A stretch of 38,392 nt of DNA from a virus, in IMG/VR virus record IMGVR_UViG_3300030099_006052, positions 1-38,392 of that record. One strand, 5' to 3'. Position numbers and translations under genes: made by a program. Below, one piece after another: positions 16,323-29,653 of the stretch. Numbering within the stretch: the first letter of the stretch is position 1; the number at the start of each line of letters is the position of its first letter. Under the pieces are notes generated by a model that searched no databases, had not been told where the DNA came from, and saw only the letters and a list, made by a program, of their open reading frames with translations.

Positions 16323-17404
16323 AACATTTAGATTTATTCTCAGGTATAGGTGGATTTAGTCTTGGTTTAGAGGAGGCAGGATTAGTTGATACGGTGGCTT
16401 TTTGTGATTGGGAAGCTTACTGTCAAGAAGTTTTAAGAAAACATTGGCCAGGCGTGCCAGTGTATGGAGATATAAAGGAGCTAACACATGAAAGACTCAG
16501 AGCAGATGGAATTGATTCCATCGACATCATCACAGGAGGATACCCCTGTCAGCCTTTCTCAGTCGCTGGACGACAAAAAGCTGAAAAGGATCCGAGACAT
16601 CTCTGGCCAGAGTATTTTAGGCTTGTCAAAGAACTCAGGCCAACTTGGGTCATTGGAGAAAACGTTAGTGGACACGTTAAACTCGGTCTCGACACCGTAC
16701 TCGAGAACTTGGAGAGTGAAGGTTACTCAACAAGGACGTTTAGTATTTCAGCTTCGAGCATCGGTGCCAACCATCAACGGGAAAGGATCTGGGTTATTGC
16801 CCACGCCAACGACACAGGAGATAGAACATCAAAACATCAATTTAACAAAGACAGGGAGAAGATTATCAAAGGACGGGAAGAGCAGTCACAGTTTGAACTT
16901 AGCAGATACGGTGAGGGTTTGGAGAACTCCAGATGCTCACAGTGGCCGTGGAGCTTCGAGCAAGGAAAGAATGAAGATGAAATTAGAGAAGGGTATGCCA
17001 ATCAGTCTGAACGATCAAGTGGCACATCCAAACTTGATGTGGCCGACTCCAAGGGCATCAGCAGCGATGGCAGAGGACATCAAGAATATACAGAAGCGGG
17101 GCACAGAGAGGGGCAGGTTGGAGGAGAGGGTGGCTCTAAGGTGGCCGACTCCAACAACAAACGACAGCAAGAACAACGGGGGAGCATCTCAACTACGATC
17201 AGGCAGGAGAGGTTATGGAAAGAATCTAAATGCTGTAGTAGCGCAGAGATCTCAAAATGGTGGGAGTCTGAACCCAACGTGGGTCGAGTGGCTCATGGCT
17301 TACCCAAAAGGGTGGACAGACTTAAGTGCTTAGGTAATGCAGTTGTGCCTATCATTCCATACCTGATTGGTAAAAGTATTCTAGAGACATACGACATTGA
17401 GTAA
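16316..17404 (+). CDS. DNA (cytosine-5) methyltransferase, probable AUU start (362 aa)
   Basis: Transfers a methyl group from SAM to C5 of cytosine in DNA. Motif I LDLFSGIGGFS (residues 5-15), motif IV GGYPCQPFS with catalytic C78, motif VI ENV (115-117), motif VIII NHQRERIWVIA (about 153-162) and motif X-type LGNAVVPIIP (339 onwards) are all present, so the enzyme should be active. The first conserved residues follow an ATT codon with AGGAGG 7 nt upstream; a GTG at 16247 is in frame but lies inside the primase gene and would add 23 unrelated residues. Residues about 165-310 (target-recognition part) are very polar and low in complexity, apparently because another frame of the same DNA is also coding (16488-17333). 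No cognate restriction enzyme is adjacent, so it likely protects phage DNA. It overlaps the next start by 8 nt. Confidence 0.88.
   Translation: MLKHLDLFSGIGGFSLGLEEAGLVDTVAFCDWEAYCQEVLRKHWPGVPVYGDIKELTHERLRADGIDSIDIITGGYPCQPFSVAGRQKAEKDPRHLWPEYFRLVKELRPTWVIGENVSGHVKLGLDTVLENLESEGYSTRTFSISASSIGANHQRERIWVIAHANDTGDRTSKHQFNKDREKIIKGREEQSQFELSRYGEGLENSRCSQWPWSFEQGKNEDEIREGYANQSERSSGTSKLDVADSKGISSDGRGHQEYTEAGHREGQVGGEGGSKVADSNNKRQQEQRGSISTTIRQERLWKESKCCSSAEISKWWESEPNVGRVAHGLPKRVDRLKCLGNAVVPIIPYLIGKSILETYDIE
16488..17333 (+). CDS. Out-of-frame gene nested in the methyltransferase gene, W/L-P-T-P protein (281 aa)
   Basis: A 281-codon frame lies wholly inside the methyltransferase gene, shifted by one base. 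It has its own AAAGGAG (16474-16480) exactly 7 nt before ATG. The product carries four related T-P motifs: LPTP (104-107), WRTP (145-148), WPTP (185-188) and WPTP (219-222), and ends LNPTWVEWLMAYPKGWTDLS. I recall a phage and bacterial family with S-x-T-W...Q-L-x-x-S-x-P...LLPTP...LNPxWVEWLMGxPxGWT, often next to C5 methyltransferases, and this product fits it from about residue 70. The same DNA read in the methyltransferase frame gives the equally typical GRVAHGLPKRVDRLKCLGNA, so both frames look selected. The function is unknown. Confidence 0.65.
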   Translation: MKDSEQMELIPSTSSQEDTPVSLSQSLDDKKLKRIRDISGQSILGLSKNSGQLGSLEKTLVDTLNSVSTPYSRTWRVKVTQQGRLVFQLRASVPTINGKGSGLLPTPTTQEIEHQNINLTKTGRRLSKDGKSSHSLNLADTVRVWRTPDAHSGRGASSKERMKMKLEKGMPISLNDQVAHPNLMWPTPRASAAMAEDIKNIQKRGTERGRLEERVALRWPTPTTNDSKNNGGASQLRSGRRGYGKNLNAVVAQRSQNGGSLNPTWVEWLMAYPKGWTDLSA

Positions 17405-25933: not shown

Positions 25934-26288
25934 TTGGGCTCATCAAGCTGCACTGTTATGGCTTTTAGACAGGGGGTATTATGTATTCACTAATGTTTTT
26001 GGCTATGGCCCAATTGATGTTGTTGCTGTTAATGACCTGGGTGATATAGAGTTGTTTGATGTTAAGGTTGCAGGATTTAGAAACAATAAAGATACAAAGG
26101 GCTCTAAACAATTAATAAACAGAGTGCTGACAGAGGAACAGAAAGATATGGGTGTTAAACTATTGTACGTTTTTGAGGACGGCACGTGCAGAGTTCAGAT
26201 GGAAAGAGGTGAATGGTTGAAAAAACAAAAACAAAAAAGAGATAAGAAAGGTAGATACATAGGTAGTGGCATCGACACCGGAGAGTAG
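25899..26288 (+). CDS. PD-(D/E)XK-type nuclease, resolvase-like (129 aa)
   Basis: ATG inside the terS tail (35-nt overlap). The sequence KGSWAHQAALLWLLDRGYYV has the N-terminal helix pattern of restriction-like nucleases. It is followed by YGPIDVVAVN (catalytic Asp in P-I-D) and LFDVKVAG (D-x-K), the second half of the active site. Length and layout resemble Holliday-junction resolvase-like or single-domain endonucleases. The C-terminus is basic (KKQKQKRDKKGRY), suited for DNA binding. Together with the next gene it forms a pair of nucleases between the terminase genes; resolution of branched DNA before packaging is a reasonable inferred role. Confidence 0.7.
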   Translation: MPVTNKKQLKGSWAHQAALLWLLDRGYYVFTNVFGYGPIDVVAVNDLGDIELFDVKVAGFRNNKDTKGSKQLINRVLTEEQKDMGVKLLYVFEDGTCRVQMERGEWLKKQKQKRDKKGRYIGSGIDTGE

Positions 26289-26700
26289 ATTATCAAAGAA
26301 AGTAAGAACTAACTTTACTAATGTACACTTTTTAAAAATTGACTCTTGGTCTACACCAGGTATGCCTGATTTATACGGTCTTTACAAATGGGGTAATGAC
26401 AACCCAGGTACTTTTTGGATGGAACTCAAGTGTACAAAAATTAACAAGTTGGGACTAAGTCCACAGCAAGTTGCCATAAATTTCAAGCTGTCTGAGTACA
26501 ACGTACCCAATTATATACTTGCCGAAAGCCTCTCTCGGCGGCAGCTCAAAATATTTCCAGGAAGCAGGGTTCAGGACTGTGCGAACGATGGTTTTAAGTC
26601 CATGAGCCATGTTGCATGTTTCGATGGCCCCTACGATTGGACAGCCGTGGAAAAATCCGTGGTCCAAGTCTCCCCACACCATACCGATCTTATAGTATAA
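26266..26700 (+). CDS. VRR-NUC-like nuclease (144 aa)
   Basis: GTG start, overlapping the upstream nuclease by 23 nt. The core reads STPGMPDLYGLYKW, then FWMELKCTKINKLGLSPQQV. G-x-P-D...E-x-K...L-S-x-x-Q is the catalytic and helical signature of VRR-NUC domains, which cut branched or modified DNA. Family members are usually about 100-130 aa, so this one is slightly long. The extra C-terminal end (roughly the last 17 codons and the stop) is coded by the first copy of the promoter-like repeat at 26651-26700, so this tail is probably not under strong protein selection or was added by the repeat. Confidence 0.75.
   Translation: MASTPESRLSKKVRTNFTNVHFLKIDSWSTPGMPDLYGLYKWGNDNPGTFWMELKCTKINKLGLSPQQVAINFKLSEYNVPNYILAESLSRRQLKIFPGSRVQDCANDGFKSMSHVACFDGPYDWTAVEKSVVQVSPHHTDLIV
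26651..26700 (+). promoter_or_regulatory. Promoter-like repeat, copy 1
   Basis: AAAAATCCG (26651-26659), GTCTCCCCA (26668-26676), TATAGT (26691-26696). It lies in the 3' end of the VRR-NUC-like gene. A GC-rich stretch with GCTC/GAGC arms (26712-26727) follows. Confidence 0.65.
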
Positions 26701-26753
26701 AAAGTTCCCGCGCTCCCGCCCGCGAGCAGCTTTTCACGATTCAACACTACATC

Positions 26754-26802
26754 TTGAAAAATCCGAAGCAACTAACACCGGATCTTGTGTTATGCCTATA
26801 AT
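26754..26802 (+). promoter_or_regulatory. Promoter-like repeat, copy 2
   Basis: TTGAAAAATCCGAAGC (26754-26769) and a perfect TATAAT (26797-26802); box B is degraded (AACACC). A hairpin AGCGGC/GTCGCT (26812-26831) follows. Confidence 0.65.
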
Positions 26803-26842
26803 AAAACCAGGAGCGGCCCAGGCACGTCGCTGCCGTGAATCC

Positions 26843-26891
26843 TGAAAAAATCCGAAGGTCAAGTCTCCCCATTTTTGGTATGAAATATAAT
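26843..26891 (+). promoter_or_regulatory. Promoter-like repeat, copy 3
   Basis: TGAAAAAATCCGAAGG (26843-26858), GTCTCCCCATTTTTG (26863-26877), perfect TATAAT (26886-26891). Hairpin ACCGG/CCGGT (26898-26919) starts at the predicted +1. Confidence 0.7.
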
Positions 26892-26994
26892 AAATTAACC
26901 GGATCCCGCTCGCGCCGGTACAAAAAAAATCTTCTTCTTTTAAGGTTTTTTGCCGAATCGAGATCCGTGATTCAGGGTAAAAGTGCCGATATAC

Positions 26995-27043
26995 TTGAAA
27001 AATCCGAAGCTGCGGTCTCCCCATTTTTGAAATGGCATATAAA
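26995..27043 (+). promoter_or_regulatory. Promoter-like repeat, copy 4
   Basis: TTGAAAAATCCGAAGC (26995-27010), GTCTCCCCATTTTTG (27015-27029), TATAAA (27038-27043). This is the copy closest to copy 3 in sequence. The GC-rich segment after it (27049-27070) folds less clearly than in the other copies. Confidence 0.7.
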
Positions 27044-27096
27044 AAAAAGGTGAGCTCCGGGCCACGTCGCAGCATAACTTTTCTTCATAAAAAAGC

Positions 27097-27126
27097 TTGA
27101 AAAATAAGGGCAAATCACTATATATA
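27097..27126 (+). promoter_or_regulatory. Candidate sigma70-type promoter for the 52-aa membrane protein
   Basis: TTGAAA (27097-27102) with TATATA 16-18 nt downstream (27119-27126). It also resembles a degenerate box A of the array (TTGAAAAATAAGGGC), so it may be a diverged copy with a normal -35. Confidence 0.5.
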
Positions 27127-27179
27127 TAGGATCAGGTTGTCTCCCTGGTACAGGTGGACATCCCAGTCAGGAGAAAGAT

Positions 27180-27338
27180 ATGAATTTATTAGCAATTGCA
27201 GGTCTAATTTGGGCATTCCTCTTAGCCATTGGTTTCGAGATGAAAGGGGGGACCTTGATATTACTGGTCTTTTTGGTCATCGCTGGACTGGTCGAAGGTG
27301 CACGAGAGGTAGGGGGTTTCATCAATGTGCTCCTATAA
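27180..27338 (+). CDS. Small two-helix membrane protein, holin-like (52 aa)
   Basis: ATG with AGGAG (27169-27173) at 6 nt. Two hydrophobic spans: NLLAIAGLIWAFLLAIGF (2-19) and GTLILLVFLVIAGLV (24-38), joined by E-M-K-G and followed by a short tail. Two-span proteins of this size include class II holins and antiholins. A better holin candidate is at 36019-36414, so this could be an antiholin, a second holin or an unrelated membrane peptide. It sits alone inside the promoter-like array and its stop overlaps the start of copy 5. An alternative frame covering 27137-27451 has no ribosome site and no recognisable product. Confidence 0.6.
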   Translation: MNLLAIAGLIWAFLLAIGFEMKGGTLILLVFLVIAGLVEGAREVGGFINVLL

Positions 27339-27381
27339 AATCCGAGGCAGCTGTATCCCCGTTTGCATGGGACGCACTAAT
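27333..27381 (+). promoter_or_regulatory. Promoter-like repeat, copy 5
   Basis: TAAAATCCGAGGCAGC (27336-27351), GTATCCCCG (27353-27361), ACTAAT (27376-27381). A perfect 18-bp palindrome CCCGCTCGGCCGAGCGGG (27391-27408) follows, flanked by A-runs; on the minus strand it is followed by ACTTTTTTT and would look like a terminator. Confidence 0.65.
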
Positions 27382-27417
27382 AAAAAAAGTCCCGCTCGGC
27401 CGAGCGGGGGTAAAAAT

Positions 27418-27471
27418 CTTCGGAAGAAATCCGAAGCGAAAGTATCCTTGATAACATAGGATTTTACTAAT
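27418..27471 (+). promoter_or_regulatory. Promoter-like repeat, copy 6
   Basis: CTTCGGA (27418-27424) and TCCGAAG (27430-27436) make an inverted repeat of box A; GTATCC (27442-27447); ACTAAT (27466-27471). A hairpin CTGGGC-TCT-GCCCAG (27479-27493) begins at the predicted +1 or +2. Confidence 0.65.
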
Positions 27472-27549
27472 AGAAAATCTGGGCTCTGCCCAGCTGATGC
27501 CAAAAGCTAAAAAAAATTTTTGAGTTTCTTGTTTGGTTGTCAAGAAATG

Positions 27550-27646: not shown

Positions 27647-27922
27647 ATGACAACTGAACTAGAACAAGTCTTACAGATAATTCAAGGTGGAAAAAAAGCA
27701 AGTACTTCGCACCTTAATTCTGCTTGGCAAAAACAAATGTTAGGTTGGGTTTACTCAACTGCTTTGGAATCTGCCATTATGACTTATCTAACTTCAAATG
27801 ATATGAGTAAAGAAAATCTTATTAGAACATTACTTACTATCATTCAGAATAAACCTAGTGACATGCAAAGTTCAATATCTGAACAAGTCCAGTCAGAACT
27901 TGAAAAAGTCCTGAACAACTAG
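27647..27922 (+). CDS. Unknown helical protein upstream of terL (91 aa)
   Basis: ATG with AAAGGAG about 12 nt upstream, a long but usable spacing. The product is mainly helical (MTTELEQVLQIIQGGKKAST, ... MTYLTSNDMSKENLIRTLLT) with Gln and Ser and no cysteines. It stands alone between the promoter-like array and the terL promoter. It might be a regulator or terminase accessory by position. I recognise no family. Confidence 0.55.
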   Translation: MTTELEQVLQIIQGGKKASTSHLNSAWQKQMLGWVYSTALESAIMTYLTSNDMSKENLIRTLLTIIQNKPSDMQSSISEQVQSELEKVLNN

Positions 27923-28151
27923 GGTTATACCTGTAAAATAATTTCCTGTGATGGTGGTTCTCTGCCATCACCAAATCCACCCCCCACATATCCACACACA
28001 TAAAGTCAGCATACTATATTTAGTAGTCCCATTGGTTTTGGAAAGTCAAAACTGTTTTTTTTTGCACCCCCCACCCCCCTTTTTTACTTAGTATAGGACA
28101 GAAGAGTGTAAAGACCAAGTTTTGCACATACACAACCTCTTACAAAAAGTT
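27923..28151. other. Intergenic region with hairpin and C-runs before terL
   Basis: No supported gene. GTGATGG (27948-27954) pairs with CCATCAC (27965-27971). Three C6 runs follow (27980-27985, 28067-28072, 28074-28079), the last two as CCCCCCACCCCCC preceded by a T9 run and followed by T6. On the minus strand these are G-runs that could form a quadruplex or a packaging/regulatory mark. Confidence 0.5.
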
Positions 28152-28180
28152 TTGAAAAAGGGGACCCAATTTGCTATACA
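28152..28180 (+). promoter_or_regulatory. Candidate promoter giving a leaderless terL mRNA
   Basis: TTGAAA (28152-28157), 17-nt spacer, TATACA (28175-28180). The expected start point falls on or next to the ATG at 28187, and no Shine-Dalgarno sequence precedes that ATG. Confidence 0.55.
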
Positions 28181-28186
28181 AAGTCA

Positions 28187-29653
28187 ATGGGAATCAACAT
28201 TGAGGGGCTAACCCCCTTAGAACAAGAAGAGACGTTAAAGAAACTCCTCTTAAGAAAAAAAATTTTAGAATTACAAAAAGATCAGAAAGAAGATTTTTTG
28301 ACCTTTGTAAGATCTGTGTGGCCAGAGTTTATAGCTGGACGACATCATAAAATTATTGCAAAAAAATTTGAGGCTATCGCCACCAAGAAAATTAAAAGAC
28401 TTATTGTCAACATGCCTCCACGACATACAAAATCTGAATTTGCATCTTATCTTTTTCCTGCATGGATGATGGGCCGTGAACCACGACTCAAGATAATTCA
28501 AACATCACACACGGCAGAATTAGCACAACGCTTTGGTCGTAAAGTTAGAAACTTAATCGACACACAAGATTATCAAAACATCTTTCCTGGCATGGAATTA
28601 TCGGCGGACTCCAAAGCAGCTGGTCGTTGGGAAACGAACCAAGGAGGAGAATACTTTTCTGCGGGTGTCGGTGGAGCAATAACAGGTCGTGGTGCTGATC
28701 TATTAATTATAGACGACCCACATTCCGAACAAGACGCACTTAGTGCAACGGCGTTAGAAAATGCGTGGGAGTGGTATTCATCAGGTCCTCGTCAGCGTTT
28801 ACAGCCTGGTGGGGCTATCGTCATTGTTATGACTCGTTGGAATACAAAAGATATCACTGGAGAACTGATCAAGGCTCAAGGACAACCGAAAGCGGATCAA
28901 TGGGACGTAATAGAGTTTCCAGCTATCATGCCGTCAGATAAACCAGTGTGGCCTGAGTATTGGCAAAAAGAAGAATTAGAATCTGTTAAAGCTTCTATCT
29001 CCCTTGCTAAGTGGAATGCTCAGTGGCAACAGAACCCTACAGCCGAAGAAGGAGCAATCATCAAACGTGAATGGTGGCAACCATGGGAAAGTTCCAAGAT
29101 GCCTGGCCTGGCACACGTGATACAATCTTACGATACTGCATTTAGCAAAAAAGAAACGGCGGACTATTCCGCTATCACTACATGGGGTATTTTCTGCCCT
29201 GATGAAAAAACACCAAATATAATTTTACTAGATATGAAAAAAGGTAGGTGGGACTTTCCTGAGATGAAAGAGGTCGCCTATGATAGTTACAAGTATTGGG
29301 AACCAGAGTCCGTGGTCATCGAAGCAAAAGCATCGGGCACACCATTAACGCAAGAATTACGAATGCGAGGTATTCCTGTTATCAACTTTACACCGAGCAA
29401 AGGCAATGATAAGTTGAGCAGAGTAAACTCAGTAGCCCCTCTATTTCAATCTGGGGTCGTATGGTACCCAGAAGGGGAAGCTTGGGCGGAAGAGTTAATC
29501 GAGGAATGTGCAGCTTTTCCTTATGGAGAGTATGACGACCTTGTTGACTCAACGACCCAAGCCTTGATGAGATTTAGACAAGGTCGTTGGATAGAGTTGT
29601 CTGATGATTTTGAGGACGAACCGACAGGTAGACAAAAAAGGGAATATTATTAA
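28187..29653 (+). CDS. terL: Terminase large subunit (488 aa)
   Basis: The DNA-packaging motor. ATPase domain: Walker A-like NMPPRHTKS (residues 75-83), Walker B DLLIIDDPHSEQD (171-183), motif III VMTRWN (214-219). Nuclease domain: SYDTAFSKKETADYS near residue 308 supplies the first catalytic aspartate, VVIEAKASGTPL the second region, and YDDLVDSTTQALM near 458 the last. P-P-R-H-x-K-S is a common variant in podovirus and siphovirus terminases. Length is normal. Its start has no ribosome site but a promoter -10 lies 7 nt upstream. The next gene begins in a TAATG overlap. Confidence 0.95.
   Translation: MGINIEGLTPLEQEETLKKLLLRKKILELQKDQKEDFLTFVRSVWPEFIAGRHHKIIAKKFEAIATKKIKRLIVNMPPRHTKSEFASYLFPAWMMGREPRLKIIQTSHTAELAQRFGRKVRNLIDTQDYQNIFPGMELSADSKAAGRWETNQGGEYFSAGVGGAITGRGADLLIIDDPHSEQDALSATALENAWEWYSSGPRQRLQPGGAIVIVMTRWNTKDITGELIKAQGQPKADQWDVIEFPAIMPSDKPVWPEYWQKEELESVKASISLAKWNAQWQQNPTAEEGAIIKREWWQPWESSKMPGLAHVIQSYDTAFSKKETADYSAITTWGIFCPDEKTPNIILLDMKKGRWDFPEMKEVAYDSYKYWEPESVVIEAKASGTPLTQELRMRGIPVINFTPSKGNDKLSRVNSVAPLFQSGVVWYPEGEAWAEELIEECAAFPYGEYDDLVDSTTQALMRFRQGRWIELSDDFEDEPTGRQKREYY

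Follow-up and report, generated by a model that had tools for sequence, protein, structure and literature searches.

In the 38.4-kb virus record analysed here (the window, at its full length), the interval between the genes on the small-terminase side and terL holds an array of six units, all on the plus strand at 26653-27500 (Table 1). Each unit consists of a box A (AAATCCG), a box B (GTMTCCCC) and a box C similar to TATAATATAA, with AAATCC at the first base of the unit. Box C follows 38 bases after the start of AAATCC in units 1 to 5 and 39 bases after it in unit 6. The sequence-only reading had described six units of fixed geometry between terS and terL, and all six are present and spaced as it described: its A-C distances (36, 36, 36, 36, 36 and 37) are exact when counted from ATCC, and box B lies 13 bases after ATCC in five units. 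The exception is unit 2, in which box B is degenerate and CC alone is kept.

Table 1. Features of the array and of the region up to terL (window coordinates; sequences in brackets)
Feature	Positions	Strand	Box A	Box B	Box C	Remarks
144-aa ORF	26266-26700	+				3' end carries unit 1
Unit 1	26653-26725	+	26653-26662	26668-26675 (GTCTCCCC)	26691-26700 (TATAGTATAA)	GC block ~26707-26725
Unit 2	26759-26831	+	26759-26768	degenerate (AACACCGG)	26797-26806 (TATAATAAAA)	GC-rich stretch after box C
Unit 3	26848-26920	+	26848-26857	26863-26870 (GTCTCCCC)	26886-26895 (TATAATAAAT)	GC block
Unit 4	27000-27072	+	27000-27009	27015-27022 (GTCTCCCC)	27038-27047 (TATAAAAAAA)	GC block
52-aa ORF	27180-27338	+				hydrophobic; inside array; no family match
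Unit 5	27338-27410	+	27338-27347	27353-27360 (GTATCCCC)	27376-27385 (ACTAATAAAA)	GC block with strong hairpin
Unit 6	27427-27500	+	27427-27436	27442-27449 (GTATCCTT)	27466-27475 (ACTAATAGAA)	GC block
91-aa ORF	27647-27922	+				first gene downstream of array; clade-specific
Conserved non-coding stretch	27990-28186	+				directly before terL; GGGGACCC and other blocks
terL	28187-29653	+				large terminase subunit

The array is interwoven with small genes. Box C of unit 1 overlaps the stop codon of the 144-aa ORF, relatives of which are found at the same place in HTVC027P, HTVC023P and psg01 (27-29% identity). The final stop-codon base of the 52-aa ORF is also the first base of box A of unit 5; upstream of this ORF lies an AT-rich promoter-like stretch (CACTATATATATAG). 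The product of the 91-aa ORF is predicted to be helical and gave no fold match.

The TerL of the window is 63-68% identical to those of the Pelagibacter phages HTVC027P and HTVC023P and of the phages 023Pt_psg01 and DSL-LC04, and the gene content (AEP-type primase, UvrD helicase, DNA polymerase A, SNF2 helicase and portal) fits the HTVC023P/HTVC027P group. There is no close record for the window among deposited phages; in IMG/VR, many contigs encode a TerL 91-99% identical to it. From these similarities, the window phage is likely to be an uncultured relative of HTVC023P/HTVC027P-type pelagiphages. A C-5 cytosine methyltransferase gene (16488-17333 of the window) was detected, among the compared genomes, several of which are fragments, only in the closest relatives (G001 and G015). 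SAR11 is a very common ocean bacterium, and the array-bearing viruses are related to SAR11 viruses. HTVC023P-type pelagiphages are described as widespread in the sea (PMC9599517).

Scanning relatives with iterated matrices, one weak single match in G017 being set aside, we found 105 distinct units and 34 contigs with at least four units (4-7 per array), always co-oriented. Independent cases are fewer, since many of the contigs represent one virus recovered almost unchanged from different samples. The array lies upstream of terL wherever the fetched stretch includes terL, and it occupies this one locus and no other in the array-bearing genomes read; in the window, a scan of both strands gave no seventh unit. 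The search of the rest of the genome and of relatives places the motif at the same locus across one clade. Removal of units at least 85% alike left a non-redundant set of 56, which falls into two subtypes. The window type reads AAATCCG...GTMTCCCC and its A-C distance is 38-39 bases. The sister type reads AAATCCC...GACCCC(A)...TATAATATAA and its A-C distance is 35-37 bases, except that the first unit of sister-type arrays often has 39. The array is absent from HTVC027P, HTVC023P, psg01 and DSL-LC04 (50 of 61.5 kb read) and from the IMG/VR relatives read with about 65% TerL identity. Among the matches listed, an A-B pattern scan of the genome collection gave no stretch with two units, and a B-C pattern in viral contigs gave mostly chance single matches.

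The array is not due to chance. When a matrix built solely from sister-type units of other phages is run over both strands of the 38 kb, its four best sites are all among the six window units, so the pattern does not depend on the window alone. With a matrix that includes the window units themselves, the six score 22.9-33.0 bits, against a threshold of 14 bits at which 1.85 Mb of Markov control sequence (both strands counted) yielded 11 matches. A match to TATAAT in five of six positions is found 34-42 bases past box A in 39 of the 56 non-redundant units, against 0-1 of 56 in equally wide stretches further downstream.

Within the unit, AAATCC is nearly invariant in both subtypes, G at A+15 is found in 32/37 and 17/19 units of the two subtypes, and every unit of the aligned non-redundant set has C at A+19 and A+20, so that A and B form one rigid module. 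The A-B spacing is rigid and the A-C distance varies from 35 to 39; the B-C distances of the two subtypes are two bases apart, and within each subtype they vary by one base. Box C has the consensus TATAATATAA, with TARTATAR as its steadiest part, and the TATAAT match is highest at the box C offset, with only background levels further downstream. A rigid A-B module with a slightly elastic gap to box C is arranged as the upstream site/-35 and the -10 of a promoter would be. In an alignment of window-type arrays from four viruses, mean per-column conservation is 0.98 in A, 0.95 in B and 0.90 in C, compared with 0.78 between A and B and 0.76-0.81 after C.

The -35 region separates the subtypes. 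The sequence-only reading had called the -35 box unlike TTGACA, which holds for the window copies (GTCTCC and GTATCC are far off) but not for all copies, since some sister-type hexamers come close (for example TCGACC and CTGACC); counting all units, the hexamer 17 bp upstream of TATAAT has at least four of six TTGACA matches in 13 of 56. Such hexamers, together with the good -10, are what one would expect if the units were ordinary constitutive sigma70 promoters, stacked for strength like A1-A3 of T7 and read by the host polymerase without a further factor, with box A upstream-element-like or incidental and box B a tolerated poor -35. We consider this unlikely for the array as a whole, and possible above all for the sister type, because boxes A and B are better conserved than most of the -10, the window-type hexamers bear so little resemblance to TTGACA, the conserved CC is placed where a -35 has no need of it, and the same loci hold normal TTGACA promoters. 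A canonical TTGACA-N17-TATATA promoter was detected inside the interval in 7 of the 12 array loci examined, so two promoter classes coexist there. Upstream of terL in seven loci (L005, L006, L009, L012, L013, L016 and L017), the spacer of the canonical promoter contains TCCCAAC or GTTGGGA-like words, which are possibly an operator. Two further candidates were rejected: GANTC (CcrM/GcrA) clusters between units are enriched in one array only (L021, p 0.01), and the sigma32-type CTTGAA...CCCCAT has the wrong spacing by inspection, with CTTGAA not conserved.

The unit has a fourth element that the sequence-only reading had missed, a GC-rich block of about 20 bp that begins 16 bp past the first base of box C. 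G+C rises from 12% in box C to about 80-86% at C+20 to C+30 (86% at C+20 to C+25) and returns to about 40% by C+35; the position of the block is constant and its sequence is not. An RNA hairpin at each transcript start was convincing by eye, but the mean Z is -0.6 against shuffles, and strong hairpins occur in 7 of 56 units versus 1.7 expected, only a modest enrichment. As the hairpin signal is weak against shuffles, we call the element a GC-rich block.

The sequence-only reading had suggested that the units may make a set of short RNAs. In favour of one such RNA per unit, most units lie 76-150 bp apart with little space for an open frame between them, and the GC-rich start could fold in some units. 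This product is not favoured, and we regard it as very unlikely: conservation is lower past box C than in the boxes, terminator-like T runs on the plus strand follow only 2 of 56 units, the terminator scan of the window gave no plus-strand site after its units, and an Rfam search of the array gave sub-threshold matches only, none at the gathering score. With so few plus-strand terminators, transcription is expected to continue across the small ORFs, the 52-aa and 91-aa ones among them. On the minus strand, several terminator-like sites of the window scan fall on the GC stretches of units, and an A-run stands just before the GC stem in 20 of 56 units, as if box C and the GC block were a minus-strand intrinsic terminator whose promoter look is only apparent. 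We give almost no credence to this explanation, given that 36 of 56 units have no A-run, stems are weak or absent in most, and boxes A and B have no role in a terminator.

The location between terS and terL also suggests an iteron-like protein-binding array for the initiation of packaging or replication, with box C as an AT-rich melting or bending element. Array-less relatives carry unrelated, lineage-specific direct repeats in the same interval, and TerS diverges along with the repeats. Nevertheless, box C is a match to TATAAT whose distance is promoter-like and whose spacing varies, and a better packaging-site candidate lies nearby, which makes this explanation quite unlikely in our view. 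The stretch of about 190 bp abutting terL is much more conserved than the array, with blocks that are almost invariant across the clade (CTAGTAGTCCCA, TTTTGCACATACACAAC and AAAAGGGGACCCAATTTG), and its GGGGACCC/GGGGTCCC block is also found before terL in the array-less HTVC023P, HTVC027P and psg01. On account of this conservation and of its presence in array-less relatives, this stretch is a stronger candidate packaging site or late promoter than the array.

The repeats of the array-less interval are GCTTGAA heptads in HTVC027P, 33-nt repeats in HTVC023P and GGGCCCACCC repeats in psg01; array-less repeat loci lie at 16499-17746 of L084, 12469-15072 of L085 and 15417-17855 of L086. In the terS-terL interval of a more distant relative (L078, 3289-3372 and 3855-3938), a duplicated cassette, a terminator followed by the promoter-like CATATAATCCCA, precedes each of two small genes. 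In a high-GC relative, non-coding DNA (L051, 3144-3275) contains a GC-rich block plus TTTGATGCAATATAA that is present three times in tandem.

HTVC027P, the closest relative to have been studied, is reported to lack an RNA polymerase gene and to use the host polymerase throughout infection, and its transcriptome paper suggests that early genes without known function may start the switch of host transcription (PMC12753301). We searched for known factors in the window and in two near-complete relatives. Sigma region 4 (PF04545) gave no match there, with controls matched in 14 genomes, and MotA (PF09114) gave none, with sub-threshold matches only in control genomes. Ogr_Delta (PF04606) and Mor (PF08765) were without match in the window, G001 and G004, and each was above the cut-off in one control genome; the single-subunit phage RNA polymerase (PF00940) was not matched, nor was it in the control. 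A co-occurrence search for an activator returned several clade-specific small proteins, none with a DNA-binding family; the clade-specific candidate genes encode 221, 169, 108, 91 and 71 aa. The sequence-only reading of promoters that need a phage activator or an altered sigma is partly supported. Promoters of a non-standard class are the best reading, given the clade-wide boxes, the single orientation, the spacing and the -10. The need for an activator or an altered sigma is no more than plausible, as no homologue was found in the window and the two relatives and some sister-type -35 hexamers come near TTGACA.

We consider it fairly probable that the array is a set of tandem non-canonical promoters of one class, read by the host RNA polymerase with a DNA-binding factor at A and B. 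Box A (AAATCC) would be placed at about -50 and box B (GTMTCCCC or GACCCC) at -35 or slightly below it; the -10 would be box C (TATAATATAA), and the GC-rich block would be the start of the transcribed stretch. All units would fire rightward, out of the interval that separates the small-terminase side genes from terL. We infer that sigma domain 2 of the host polymerase would read box C, and that a DNA-binding protein, of phage or host, would occupy A-B, replacing the normal -35 contact or acting alongside it. Together the copies could drive strong, factor-dependent transcription through the small genes of the interval, some of which the canonical-looking promoters may serve before the factor is present. 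Against the promoter reading, these phages show the class at none of their other operons, a distribution that would be unusual for a general activator, box B is lost in unit 2, and unit 1 is inside coding sequence.

The array would grow, shrink and be partly homogenised by duplication. Copy number varies between arrays, two units in one relative (G005) agree almost throughout from box A to box C, the stretch from AAATCC to TATAATATA being identical, and one sister-type unit overlaps the end of a 58-aa ORF, as units 1 and 5 of the window overlap ORF ends. These overlaps and the identical units indicate that the array turns over by duplication with the boxes kept. As units related by duplication share their orientation, that orientation is not independent evidence for promoters.

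Judged from its sequence, the array probably lets the virus switch on the locus with a factor of its own. We put forward only tentatively the wider proposal that an undescribed promoter class (A at -50, B at -35, C at -10 and a GC-rich start), in a single-locus array of 4-7 copies in a pelagiphage-like lineage, has a phage factor replacing the host-sigma -35 contact and may represent an independent appropriation of sigma without an own polymerase. Promoters are not mentioned in the main text of two HTVC027P papers and of an HTVC023P-type genome paper, and our literature searches found no description of these boxes or of the array. The array offers a sequence-defined target for how HTVC023P-type relatives switch host transcription without their own polymerase, and an example of a promoter class amplified at one locus instead of spread over operons.

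Activator-dependent phage promoters are a known kind; the boxes, the GC block and the stacking at a single locus appear new. In the promoters of P2 Ogr/P4 Delta and of Mu Mor/C, an activator site lies upstream of or over a poor -35 with a sigma70-like -10, as in the array; they are dispersed, have other site sequences and lack a GC block. The tandem early promoters A1-A2-A3 of T7 are strong, and like the array they stack several co-oriented promoters in a short stretch, with ordinary -35 boxes where the array has a replaced -35 and shared boxes A and B. The middle promoters of T4 (MotA/AsiA) keep the sigma70 -10 and replace the -35 by a phage-specific box at nearly fixed spacing, again like the array; the MotA box (WWWTGCTTTA, centred at -30, 12±1 bp from the -10) is absent from the array, whose position-by-position profile shows GACCCC or GTMTCCCC at that place, and T4 has nearly 60 such promoters, as opposed to one cluster here (PMC2988021). 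The likeness to middle promoters that the sequence-only reading had drawn is therefore functional and does not extend to layout, middle promoters being dispersed at operon heads and the array confined to one locus. The nearest parallel in layout is the clusters of CtrA sites in phages of Alphaproteobacteria (vB_BsubS-Delta and others), found in one large gap by a small ORF, where many copies of one transcription-factor site are likewise packed together (PMC9437464). CtrA sites themselves were rejected as a candidate, TTAA-N7-TTAA occurring 0-1 times per array examined, and each site of the array has its own -10.
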